Shown here piece by piece: positions 42,369 to 45,930 of a stretch of DNA of 47,765 nt. Under the pieces are notes generated by a model. The model was given only the letters and a program-made list of their open reading frames with translations. It did no database searches and was not told the DNA's origin. Within the stretch, counting starts at the first letter, position 1. Each line of letters starts with the position of its first letter. The DNA is from Phaeospirillum sp. (GTDB lineage Bacteria > Pseudomonadota > Alphaproteobacteria > Rhodospirillales > Magnetospirillaceae): NCBI GenBank assembly GCA_030824585.1, contig JAVBXM010000239.1, positions 1-47,765 on the forward strand. Reading direction: 5' to 3'. Made by a program: the position numbers and the translations under genes.

Positions 42369-43295
42369 TCAGTCCTGGTCGACGGTATCGGGAGTATCGA
42401 TGGGCAGCGACACCAGATCGCCGGCCGCACCGCGATTCTTCAGCAGCGACAGGATGCGGATCATGGTGGCGCGCAGGTCGCGGCGCGGTACCACCATGTC
42501 CACCATGCCGTGCTCCAGCAGGTATTCCGCCTTTTGGAAGCCTTCGGGCAGCTTTTCGCGGATGGTGCTTTCGATGACGCGGGCGCCGGCAAAGCCGATC
42601 ACCGCGCCGGGCTCGGCGATGGCGATGTCGCCCAGCATGGCGAAGCTGGCCGAGACGCCGCCGGTGGTGGGGTCGGTCAGCAGCACGATATAGGGCAGCC
42701 GCTTCTCCTTGACCTTGTCCACCGCCACGGTGGTCCGGGCCATCTGCATCAGCGACAGGATGCCTTCCTGCATGCGGGCGCCGCCCGAGGCGGGAATGAC
42801 GATCAGCGGCGCGTCCTGCAGCACCGCCAGCTCGGCCGCCGCCACGATGCCCTCGCCCACGGCGATGCCCATGGAGCCGCCCTGGAAGTCGAAGTTGAAG
42901 CAGGCGGCCACCACGTTCATGCCGCCCATGCGGCCGTGGGCGACCACGATGGCGTCCACCTCGCCGGTCTTGGAGCGGGTATCCTTGAGGCGGTCGGAGT
43001 AGCGCTTCTGGTCCTTGAACTTCAGCGGGTCGTCGGCGACCTTGGGCAGCTCGATGCGCTGGAACTGGCCGTCATCGAACAGCATGCCCAGGCGCTTCTT
43101 GGCCGACAGGCGCATGTGATGGCCGCAATGCTGGCAGACGTTCAACGCCTTTTCCAGGTCGCGGTGGAAGATCATGTGGCCGCAGCCCGGGCATTTGAGC
43201 CACAGGTTGTCGGGCACCTCCTTGGGCGCCACCAGTCCGATGAGGCGCTCCTTCAGCGAGCGCCGGGTATTGTCGAGATTGGTCAGCCAATTCAT
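42369..43295 (-). CDS. accD: Acetyl-CoA carboxylase carboxyltransferase beta subunit AccD
   Basis: AccD is half of the carboxyltransferase that makes malonyl-CoA. ATG 43295 (MNWLTNLDNTRRSL, AAAGGA upstream) gives 308 residues. The N-terminal zinc ribbon uses Cys35, Cys38, Cys54 and Cys57 (CPGCGH, CQHCGHH). The crotonase-like core contains GGSMGIAVGEGIV, PLIVIPASGGARMQEG and YIVLLTDPTTGGVSASFAMLGD. A longer frame begins inside the cassette's inverted repeat and was rejected. It normally follows trpA; here the GxxExxY cassette lies between. Confidence 0.96.
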   Translation of the reverse strand: MNWLTNLDNTRRSLKERLIGLVAPKEVPDNLWLKCPGCGHMIFHRDLEKALNVCQHCGHHMRLSAKKRLGMLFDDGQFQRIELPKVADDPLKFKDQKRYSDRLKDTRSKTGEVDAIVVAHGRMGGMNVVAACFNFDFQGGSMGIAVGEGIVAAAELAVLQDAPLIVIPASGGARMQEGILSLMQMARTTVAVDKVKEKRLPYIVLLTDPTTGGVSASFAMLGDIAIAEPGAVIGFAGARVIESTIREKLPEGFQKAEYLLEHGMVDMVVPRRDLRATMIRILSLLKNRGAAGDLVSLPIDTPDTVDQD

Positions 43296-43343
43296 GGTCA
43301 ATCGTCCTTTCGAGCTTTTCCGGCCCGGGCATCCGTTTGATAG

Positions 43344-43372
43344 GACACAGATGAACACAGATGAACACAGAT
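43344..43372. repeat. Left inverted repeat of the cassette
   Basis: G followed by ACACAGATGA twice and ACACAGAT. It lies five bases beyond the stop of the GxxExxY gene and 48 bases before the accD start. Confidence 0.9.
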
Positions 43373-43377
43373 CAGAA

Positions 43378-43770
43378 TCACAGACGTATCCTCTTGAACT
43401 CCAGCTTCGGCTTGCCGAAGTTCAACAGCAATGCTGTCTGCAATCCGCTGGCTCGCAGGTAATTGAGGCATTGTCCAACATGGTTTGACGCCAGTGCCTC
43501 GATAGCTTTCAGTTCGACGACGACGCTCCGTTCCACCACAAGGTCGGCGATATAGGTACCGACAGGATCGCCCTTGTAATCGATACGGTACGAGACTTCT
43601 CGTTCGACGAAAAGTCCCGCGAGGCTCAGTTCCTTCAAGAGAGCCTTTTGGTACACCGCTTCGAGAAAGCCGTTTCCAAGGATATTTGAAACCTCGAATG
43701 CGGCGGCCAAGATGCGCCCCGTCAGGGGGTCTCGGTCGGCGCCGTCTTTCCGGGCGTCATCTGTGTTCAT
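43378..43770 (-). CDS. GxxExxY family PD-(D/E)XK-like protein
   Basis: A 130-residue protein of the GxxExxY family, related to PD-(D/E)XK nucleases. The motif is visible as GFLEAVY (about 34-40), after LTGRILAAAFEVSNILGNG. The nuclease-like core reads GTYIADLVVERSVVVELKAIE, giving Asp, Glu-x-Lys. LNYLRASGLQTALLLNFGKPKLEFKR is the typical C-terminus. The ATG at 43770 lies inside the right inverted repeat. The repeat has ATGs in three frames, because its period is 10; only this one opens the gene, as the other two meet stops within 13 codons. GC is lower than in neighbours. The true activity is unknown. Confidence 0.88.
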   Translation of the reverse strand: MNTDDARKDGADRDPLTGRILAAAFEVSNILGNGFLEAVYQKALLKELSLAGLFVEREVSYRIDYKGDPVGTYIADLVVERSVVVELKAIEALASNHVGQCLNYLRASGLQTALLLNFGKPKLEFKRIRL

Positions 43771-43787
43771 CTGTGTTCATCTGTGTC
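43759..43787. repeat. Right inverted repeat of the cassette (contains the gene start)
   Basis: ATCTGTGTTC twice plus ATCTGTGTC, the exact reverse complement of 43344-43372. On the minus strand it supplies the start codon and the first residues (MNTD) of the GxxExxY protein. Confidence 0.9.
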
Positions 43788-43796
43788 TGAAAACAC

Positions 43797-44606
43797 CTAC
43801 TTCCGGGCGCCGCGCACCCCGGCCGCCAGGTCCTTGACCAGGGCCAGCGGGGCGGAAACGGCGCCGGACTTGCCGATATTGTCGGCCAGAACCGAAACGA
43901 TGGCCGAACCCACCACCGCGCCGTCGGCGACGCGGGCGATTTCGGCCGCCTGGGCGGGGGCCTTGATGCCGAAGCCGACGCAGACCGGAAGGCCGGTGTG
44001 GCGACGGATGCGGGCTACCGCCTCGTCGATGGCCGCCTGGGCCGCCGACGCGGTGCCGGTGATGCCGGCGATGGACACGTAGTAGACGAAGCCCGACGCG
44101 TTGGCCAGGACCACCGGCAGGCGGGCGTCGTCGCTGGTCGGCGTGGTCAGCACGATGAAGTCGATGCCGGCGGCGCGCAGGAAGGGCACCAGTTCGTCGG
44201 CCTCCTCGGGGGGCAGGTCGACGATGATCAGCCCGTCGACGCCGGCCTGGGCGGCGTCCTTGGCAAATTTTTCCGGACCCCAGGCGTAGACGGGATTGTA
44301 GTAGCCCATCAGGATGACCGGCGTCTCGGCGTCGGTCTTGCGGAAGGCCGTCACCATCTCCAGGGTCTGCCTCAGTGAGCCGCCCGCTTTGAGCGCCCGG
44401 CCCGCCGCCAGTTCGATCACCGGGCCGTCGGCCATGGGGTCGGTGAAGGGCATGCCCAGCTCGATGATGTCGGCGCCGGCCGCCGGCATGCCGTCGAGCA
44501 GGGCCTGGCTGGTGGCGCGGTCGGGATCGCCGGCGGTGATGAAGGTCACCAGGGCGGCGCGGTTCTCGGCCTTGAGCTTGGCGAAACGCTTGGCGATGCG
44601 GCTCAT
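43797..44606 (-). CDS. trpA: Tryptophan synthase alpha subunit
   Basis: TrpA cleaves indole-3-glycerol phosphate to indole, which passes to TrpB. The 269 residues have the catalytic Glu49 and Asp60 ([15 protein letters not shown]). Other landmarks are [35 protein letters not shown] and [10 protein letters not shown]. It follows trpB after 100 bases containing a hairpin and is followed by the cassette. Confidence 0.97.
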
Positions 44607-44631
44607 CTTATTTGTCCCTCAAGCGCCGGGC

Positions 44632-44647
44632 GGGTGCTCGCGCACCC
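44632..44647. repeat. GGGTGC-TCGC-GCACCC hairpin between trpB and trpA
   Basis: A perfect 6-bp stem with a 4-base loop lies in the 100-bp trpB-trpA spacer, which otherwise has no visible gene. It might reduce read-through or stabilise the message. Confidence 0.4.
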
Positions 44648-44706
44648 TTGGCTCCTCCGCTGCGCTCCGGGACGCTCAGTGCGCCCGCGCTCGGCTATGG
44701 CCTCGC

Positions 44707-45930
44707 TCATACCAGCCCCCCCAGATGTTCGTCGCCCAGCGCCTTGGCGATGGTGCTGACGTCCTTGTCGCCGCGTCCCGACAGGTTGACCACCATCAGG
44801 TGGTCCTTGGGCAGGCCGGGGGTGAGCTTGGCGGCATGGGCGATGGCGTGGCTGGATTCCAGGGCCGGGATGATGCCTTCCAGGCGGGTGCATTGCTGGA
44901 AGGCGACCACCGCCTCGTCGTCGGTCACCGAGACGTATTCGACGCGGCCGGTCTCGTGCAGCCAGGAATGCTCCGGCCCGATGCCGGGATAGTCCAGGCC
45001 GGCCGAGATGGAATGGGCCTCGGCGATCTGGCCGTCGGCGTCCTGCAGCAGGTAGGTGCGGTTGCCGTGCAGCACGCCGGGCTTGCCGCCGGTGAGACTG
45101 GCGGCATGCAGCTTGTCCAGGCCGTGGCCGGCCGCCTCGACGCCGATGATGCGCACGCTCTTGTCGTCGAGGAAGGGGTGGAACAGCCCCATGGCGTTGG
45201 AGCCGCCGCCGATGCAGGCCACCAGCGAGTCGGGCAGGCGGCCTTCCTGGGCCATGATCTGGTCGCGCACTTCCTCGCCGATCACCGACTGGAAGTCGCG
45301 GACCATGGCCGGGTACGGGTGCGGGCCGGCCACCGTGCCGATCAGGTAGTAGGTGTCGGTCACGTTGGACACCCAGTCGCGCAGCGCGTCGTTCATGGCG
45401 TCCTTCAGTGTCGCCGCCCCGCTGGTCACCGGCTTGACCTCGGCGCCCAGCAGCTTCATGCGGTAGACGTTGGGCATCTGCCGCTCGATGTCGGTGGCGC
45501 CCATGTAGATGACGCATCGCATGCCGAACAGGGCGCAGACGGTGGCGGTGGCCACGCCGTGCTGGCCGGCCCCGGTCTCGGCGATGATGCGCTGCTTGCC
45601 CATGCGCCGGGCCAGCAGGATCTGGCCGATGCAGTTGTTGATCTTGTGGGCGCCGGTATGGTTGAGGTCTTCGCGCTTGAGGAACACCTTGGCGCCGCCG
45701 AACGCCTCGGTCAGGCGGCGGGCGAAATACAGCGGGTTGGGGCGGCCCACGTATTGGGCCAGCAGCGAGCGGAACTCGGCCTGGAACGCCGGATCGGCCT
45801 TGGCGGCCCCGTAGGCCTTCTCGACCTCGAGAATGAGGGGCATCAGGGTCTCGGCCACATAGCGGCCGCCGAAGATGCCGAAATGGCCACGCTCATCGGG
45901 ACCGGCGCGATAGGTGTTCAGACTTTGCAT
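44707..45930 (-). CDS. trpB: Tryptophan synthase beta subunit
   Basis: TrpB condenses indole and serine with pyridoxal phosphate. The 407 residues have the cofactor Lys at about 96 ([11 protein letters not shown]). [42 protein letters not shown] and LSGRGDKD are standard. The start is ATG 45930 ([15 protein letters not shown]). trpF, often upstream, is absent; an EAL-CBS-GGDEF gene takes its place, 87 bases away. Confidence 0.97.

Follow-up and report, generated by a model that had tools for sequence, protein, structure and literature searches.

What is a small nuclease gene, closely bracketed by two perfect inverted repeats, doing between trpA and accD? The window, by which we mean the whole stretch of 47,765 bases, carries a GxxExxY gene (43378-43770, minus strand; TIGR04256, PF13366 PDDEXK_3) encoding 130 amino acids with a predicted Cas4/RecB-like fold. 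Its 5' arm, read on the gene strand (43759-43787, minus), is built of three CACAGAT units with 10-bp spacing and contains the GxxExxY start codon. The 3' arm (43344-43372, plus), again of three CACAGAT units, is an inverted copy of the 5' arm, identical at 29/29 positions, and the stop codon lies 5 bases short of it; the perfect repeats of 10-bp units and the compactness described in the first-pass annotation are thus confirmed. The neighbours on either side, trpA upstream (43797-44606, minus) and accD downstream (42369-43295, minus, its start codon read from the sequence), are co-directional with the gene and were both identified by profile, in agreement with the proposed insertion between them. 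In cassette-free relatives accD follows trpA within about 55 bp, and the leader between the 3' arm and the accD start (43296-43343, minus) itself exceeds the junction length of the nearest empty relatives. The low GC content noted earlier also holds, at 0.54 in the 500-base interval 43250-43749 versus 0.62-0.70 in intervals overlapping the gene by half or less. Arrays of at least three CRCNRA units occur at the two cassette arms only in the whole window. The trpB-trpA junction (44607-44705) contains about 100 bp of GC-rich, hairpin-like sequence of a different kind from the arms. A search of 42900-44900 for known RNA families gave a single match to E 1, gut-2 (E 0.72, under the gathering score), within trpA.

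The window protein matches NCBIfam TIGR04256 with 133.4 bits (cut-off 35, E 4e-39) and Pfam PF13366 PDDEXK_3 with 130 bits (cut-off 22, E 7e-38); Pfam searched to E 1 and NCBIfam to E 0.001 gave nothing beyond these two profiles, and no transposase match. An AlphaFold model (pLDDT 93), calculated from an alignment (A1) of 106 sequences out of 107 non-redundant ones, places the active-site residues in an alpha-beta core, as predicted for a member of the PD-(D/E)XK superfamily. The model's best fold match, and its one match with E under 0.001, is Sulfolobus Cas4 SSO0001 (4ic1; TM 0.58, E 3e-4); LHK-Exo, lambda exonuclease, AddAB and MGME1 follow as weaker matches, and the catalytic domain of I-Bth0305I matches weakly. 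Residues E37, D76, E86, K88, Q100 and Y104 are all kept in 138/150 proteins, and the D, ExK and QxxxY motifs of the family constitute the RecB/Cas4 signature. The profile matches and the modelled fold uphold the description of the protein as nuclease-like. A search of solved structures by sequence returned zero matches to E 1. Assignment to a defence family was considered and dropped, as neither the match to PADLOC PDC-S02 (E 0.006) nor that of a second family member, L036, to Cas4 (E 0.047) was convincing; the same applies to a phage family (phrog_5928, of unknown function, E 0.0015). A large virus infecting a haptophyte alga also has an annotated GxxExxY protein, tabulated under replication, recombination and repair (PMC12085832).

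Gene and repeats had been taken at first pass to form one unit, and the link proves to be family-wide. Genes of the family were gathered from three sources: 28 loci obtained when the window protein was searched against genome contigs; a 249-genome sample of the phylum, in which 48 genomes had a match; and 27 genomes of a first set (27/27 with a match, 1 to 18 each), together with the stretches around these matches. After removal of 6 of the 165 domain hits as too near a contig edge and of 22 identical copies, 137 distinct genes remained. Arms were scored as the best local match between the 150-bp 5' flank and the reverse complement of the 3' flank, with a score of at least 14 required. Matching inverted arms were found at 86/137 GxxExxY genes versus 1/171 other genes in the same loci, while this score was reached by 3.2% of mismatched pairs (n=2709) and 0.1% of shuffles (n=685); in direct orientation the flanks matched at 17.5% of the 137 genes. 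Defining an array as at least two CRCNRA units, 8-10 bp apart and within 180 bp of the gene, we found arrays on any flank of 113/137 genes, on both flanks of 92/137 and with at least three units at 95/137, compared with 8.0%, 0.2% and 4.8%, respectively, of 415 control windows from the same loci. Where both flanks carried arrays (n=92) they mostly faced inward (+- 69, ++ 14, -+ 7, -- 2). The modal arm has three units, spacing is 8, 9 or 10 bp in 121/149 cases, and at least two units are present in 78/86 arms versus 5.3% of shuffled arms. The comparisons with mismatched pairs, shuffles and control windows reject chance or base composition as the source of the arms.

The pairing of GxxExxY genes with arrays is spread over many bacterial phyla, with variations. 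No CRCNRA array accompanies 24/137 genes; some of these were checked by eye, and several have palindromes of variant units, e.g. ACAGGAT. At four loci (L037, L047, L202 and L234) the gene adjoins a whole palindrome rather than lying between two arms; in L037, L047 and L202 this palindrome is upstream of the gene, and in L047 and L202 its units are followed by A. By rough ORF calling, the gene sits at co-directional junctions in 93/122 loci. In one family of the phylum (f24) it recurs between apparent trpD and trpC (L067, L070, L071, L073-L075, L079, L080, L083 and L090; neighbours named by eye), with arms that differ across species and mostly match inside one locus. The archaeal Methanocorpusculum genome G266 has 18 matches, the most per genome in the first set, and the flanks checked there (among L056, L104, L124, L141, L150, L153, L154, L162, L164 and L174) show unrelated GC-rich hairpins and no CRCNRA arrays. 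Searched by tblastn, the window protein matched 8/72,556 plasmid records and 0/50,697 phage records, which gives little support to the gene being phage or plasmid cargo.

The arm motif follows the descent of the protein, not that of the host. In 97 loci CRCNRA is followed by G or T, and this base changes once on the 150-protein tree, with zero exceptions, whereas each of 50 shuffles of the class labels required at least 26 changes; the test omitted 40/137 loci (24 without an array, 15 with A and 1 with C; 11 of the 40 in one archaeal genome). The G/T switch is one deep event followed by retention, not many independent co-changes. Because 908 of about 3000 protein pairs have an identity below 35%, flanks without function would hardly keep to the G/T rule. 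Protein distance and motif distance are correlated over 78 loci (Mantel r 0.45, with 0/500 permutations as high), and GC content offered no explanation of the motif (r 0.03, p 0.19). The other positions evolve faster, with 13 changes at R2 and 30 at N4R5 on the 78-locus tree. These variable positions are shared by the two arms of a locus in 0.52 of pairs, by nearest protein neighbours in 0.35 and by random loci in 0.10, so the arms of a pair stay alike while changing. This co-inheritance of motif and clade argues for recognition of the array by the nuclease. That the host genome determines the motif was rejected, as three motifs occur in one genome and GC is uncorrelated.

That genome is the source genome of the window (G000), a 4.94-Mb draft with 3 GxxExxY genes. 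The second gene, L036, lies before an apparent carB within arms of CACGAAGG units, and the third, L037, before an apparent ychF, has its upstream palindrome made of CACCAAGG units, so that one genome holds three copies with three motifs (among the neighbours, carB, ychF, ureC, trpD and trpC were named by visual reading of the sequence, trpA and accD by profile). The pattern of the window arms, ACACAGATNAACACAGAT with at most two mismatches, has 43 matches in the genome and its reversed control 0, which shows that the arms are not chance. These 43 matches represent 16 places; one has a GxxExxY gene, and the 15 gene-less ones are mostly palindromes of roughly 75-110 bp. Eleven of the 15 gene-less copies (L022, L024-L026, L028-L034) are embedded in a longer repeat, about 190 bp in length, whose inverted ends resemble CTAGGNCCAATCGACATTCA, and two others, L027 and L035, lie outside it. 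The larger repeat may be an independent MITE that acquired the palindrome, and it may be the mover of the 11 palindromes inside it. As single-stranded DNA the L027 element would fold into a near-perfect hairpin (z -10.9). With 15 gene-less copies and 3 genes here, and 1 to 18 gene matches per genome elsewhere, the idea of a cassette unique to the source genome was discarded.

Across the genus, the GxxExxY family is present in 9/17 genomes, and repeats were counted with the gene's own arms included unless stated. The clearest case is ACACGAATNAACACGAAT (at most one mismatch), which has 18 matches in G279, 10 in G283 and 40 in G290, in each of which 4 matches are the gene's own or adjoining arrays, and 0 in the other 14 genomes and in the control; repeats of the ACACGAAT type are therefore found in exactly the 3/17 genomes that hold the gene with ACACGAAT arms. 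For ACACAGAT the four genomes with the cognate gene have 43, 51, 16 and 7 matches versus 20, 7, 5, 4, 1, 1 and seven zeros in those without it (p 0.003; 0.007 after subtracting own arms by hand), the four highest of the latter being G276, G281, G286 and G288, which have no gene of that motif. CACSAAGG gives 59, 66, 16, 2 and 31 matches in the five genomes whose G-class gene sits at the carB or the ychF site (p 0.006; reversed control 0-2 per genome) and 0-5 in the remaining genomes, except for G282, with 55 matches and no gene. The genome with just 2 matches, G289, has a CACCAAGG gene nonetheless, and G279 combines all three repeat types in high number with four GxxExxY genes.

A similar association is seen in the 249-genome sample, whose gene counts and repeat counts were taken to be of the same sample as labels and number agree. 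At least five matches to the three-unit pattern were found in 17/48 gene-positive versus 8/201 gene-negative genomes, and within one family, comparing 39 positive with 24 negative genomes, the p value is 7e-5; this within-family test was also rerun leaving out G029 only. The pattern is loose, several matches being plainly coding repeats, and single matches mean little because 108/249 genomes have at least one. A few genomes are control-rich, among them G029 (37 matches versus 51 in the control) and G203 (6 versus 16). G282, and G037 with 22 matches, carry orphan repeats with no GxxExxY match and are real counter-cases to the pairing of gene and repeat.

Comparison of common junctions reveals all three states of the site. 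At trpA-accD, gene and arms are present in 4 of 17 genomes (G000, G279, G285 and G289), G290 has a gene-less palindrome with ACACGAAT arms, and the remaining 12 have no array, so that the search for cassette-free junctions called for by the first-pass annotation was successful. The same annotation had named repeats occurring widely without the gene, together with a lack of empty sites, as evidence against a mobile cassette; the repeats are indeed widespread without it, but empty sites exist. At the apparent carB junction, G000, G279 and G286 have a G-class gene and G290 and G283 gene-less palindromes of the T class. The L027 element, at a stop/start junction, is present in the source genome and G279, with no array in 11 relatives including the nearest, G276; these are the relatives in which both flanks were found, 4/16 (G289, G284, G277 and G278) being left unjudged. 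The L035 element occurs in G000, G276 and G279, and 14 genomes have no array at this junction. In the alignments with relatives these two scattered copies stand directly before start codons, and no target-site duplication is visible at either site, where the flanks have diverged. The sequence enclosed by gene-less palindromes is varied and measures from about 20 to 420 bp, the interior differs between element copies in G290, and L283 is a T-class element with a G-class palindrome nested inside.

The history of these sites can be read in two ways. The distant G279 shares both tested gene-less junctions with the source genome, and the distribution at L027 and L035 therefore means either that junctions are reused or that old insertions were lost often, leaving the junction intact. 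The four trpA-accD proteins form one clade (94/95, below the tool's star), within which the G285 protein groups with those of G279 and G289 (95/93), against the species tree, where G285 and G000 belong to a 100/100 clade whose five other members are empty at trpA-accD. We regard reuse of junctions as probably the likelier of the two; the trpA-accD clade would also fit an old insertion with losses.

We favour a two-part system consisting of the GxxExxY nuclease and its cognate palindrome, in which the nuclease drives the copying of the palindrome into gene junctions, and give it a probability of roughly 0.6. The family-wide pairing, the matched arms, the gene-less cognate copies and the presence or absence of elements at common junctions establish the association itself; that the nuclease recognises and mobilises the repeats we infer from the co-inheritance of protein clade and motif. 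The cognate repeat would be a palindrome with about three CRCNRA units at 8-10 bp in each arm, followed by T in the protein clade that includes the window protein and by G in that of L036. The nuclease would bind its own class of array and act on the palindrome, either as duplex or as extruded hairpin, and the palindrome would thereby be copied into new gene junctions, with host repair making the joins. Gene-less palindromes would be the non-autonomous form, and the gene would be retained because it sustains its own repeats, an idea put forward for RAYTs and REPINs. The minimal one-gene mobile element suggested at first pass survives insofar as gene and repeats belong together; a one-gene transposon alone does not describe it, given the 15 gene-less copies versus 3 genes, the four loci with a whole palindrome beside the gene and the single clade at trpA-accD. 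Still broader, and in our estimate somewhat short of even odds, is the proposal of a class of transposase-free mobile elements, bacterial and archaeal, in which one Cas4/RecB-like nuclease plus host repair multiplies CRCNRA-bounded palindromes with or without the gene as cargo, specificity diversifying with the protein and several independent systems coexisting in a genome.

Two other readings also assign the nuclease a direct role at its arrays. It might be a homing-type selfish gene whose product cuts the gene-less palindrome between the arms, repair then copying the gene in from a filled copy. Arrays facing inward around the gene (69/92 loci), a trpA-accD junction known filled, gene-less and empty, and trpA-accD copies that cluster in the protein tree and disagree with the species tree would all suit such a gene, but numerous gene-less palindromes coexist with the gene in one genome and several loci have the gene outside a whole palindrome; we judge homing unlikely. 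A little less likely still is that the arrays are operators, bound by GxxExxY to control its own gene and a downstream regulon, with the nuclease fold used for DNA binding only. A regulator would have little use for a second, inverted array behind the gene or for active-site residues kept in 138/150 proteins, and the scattered copies are absent from the same junctions in most relatives and enclose varied, even nested, sequence. These features outweigh, in our opinion, the closeness of the arms to the start codon in the window, the co-directional junctions (93/122 loci, rough ORF calling) and the two aligned copies directly before start codons.

The remaining explanations detach the repeats from mobilisation by the nuclease. 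The palindromes might be ordinary MITEs or REPs mobilised by a transposase from another locus, with GxxExxY genes having merely landed in or near them; this can draw on the 11/15 gene-less copies of the source genome that are embedded in a larger repeat having ends of its own, and on the genomes with repeats and no gene (G282, G037). Chance landing would not, however, give a motif that tracks the GxxExxY clade in 97 loci and many phyla without exception, and we consider this origin improbable. Least credible to us, and very improbable, is a housekeeping role for the host, in which a domesticated nuclease and its palindromes would function in DNA repair, in organising the chromosome or at mRNA ends. 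Same-site copies do form clades, and plasmid and phage records with the gene are few or nil by tblastn with the window protein, as a resident function would have it, but a distribution over 9/17 genomes of one genus is patchy and up to 18 matches per genome are found.

Set against known systems, the two-part system that we favour has partial likenesses to several. With Cas4, RecB and lambda exonuclease the protein shares the modelled fold (4ic1, TM 0.58) and the conserved D, ExK and QxxxY of the RecB/Cas4 signature; it differs in a core of about 115 amino acids, in linked repeats of its own and in having trpA and accD as neighbours rather than a CRISPR adaptation neighbourhood, and PADLOC gave no Cas4 match to E 0.1 for the window protein. 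I-Ssp6803I is a PD-(D/E)XK homing endonuclease, and a small nuclease gene between the halves of a palindrome-like site recalls such enzymes; here, in contrast, no intron or intein is seen, many gene-less sites exist beside the gene and the motif depends on the clade. Relatives show trpA-accD junctions that are empty, gene-less or filled, and homing would in addition require copying of the gene into the empty form. The Rpn 'recombination-promoting nuclease' proteins are likewise PD-(D/E)XK proteins with several copies per genome and are suspected DNA movers. We know of no cognate repeat arrays for Rpn, and the window protein has no Rpn profile match in Pfam or NCBIfam. Like MITEs and insertion sequences, the elements are short, have terminal inverted repeats, are present or absent at defined sites and come in forms with and without a gene; unlike them, their gene is no transposase by Pfam and NCBIfam, their arms are unit arrays and their interior is variable in G290. 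At the two sites aligned with relatives, where the flanks have diverged, no target-site duplication was visible.

The closest parallel in organisation is with REPINs and RAYTs. Each distinct RAYT of a genome adjoins its own REPIN type, and movement of REPINs in trans has been proposed (PMC3116915, PMC3733652); deep sequencing has been used to look for REPIN excision (PMC3116915). The same arrangement is found here: an enzyme gene flanked by inverted repeats of its own type, scattered gene-less doublets elsewhere and several such pairs per genome (PMC3116915). RAYT repeats are described as GTAG- or CGTC-tagged palindromes (PMC3733652), whereas each arm here is an array of some three CRCNRA units, and a PD-(D/E)XK nuclease takes the place of the tyrosine transposase. 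The Pfam and NCBIfam profiles give the GxxExxY protein no match to a Y1 (HUH) tyrosine transposase, and because its enzyme is a PD-(D/E)XK nuclease, the system is not a member of the REPIN-RAYT group.

We found no description of the link between gene and repeat in the open-licence PubMed Central literature, where absence is not proof. With this link a likely substrate can be named for a family annotated only as 'GxxExxY protein', and a likely cognate enzyme for unexplained palindromes in many phyla. Should the nuclease move the repeats, these would represent a transposase-free class of mobile DNA comparable to RAYT-REPIN; otherwise the pairing seen across the family still demands a function. 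Protein clades with switched motifs are ready-made specificity tests, and the residues that set the T clade apart from the G clade include 35, 74, 103, 107 and 124-127.
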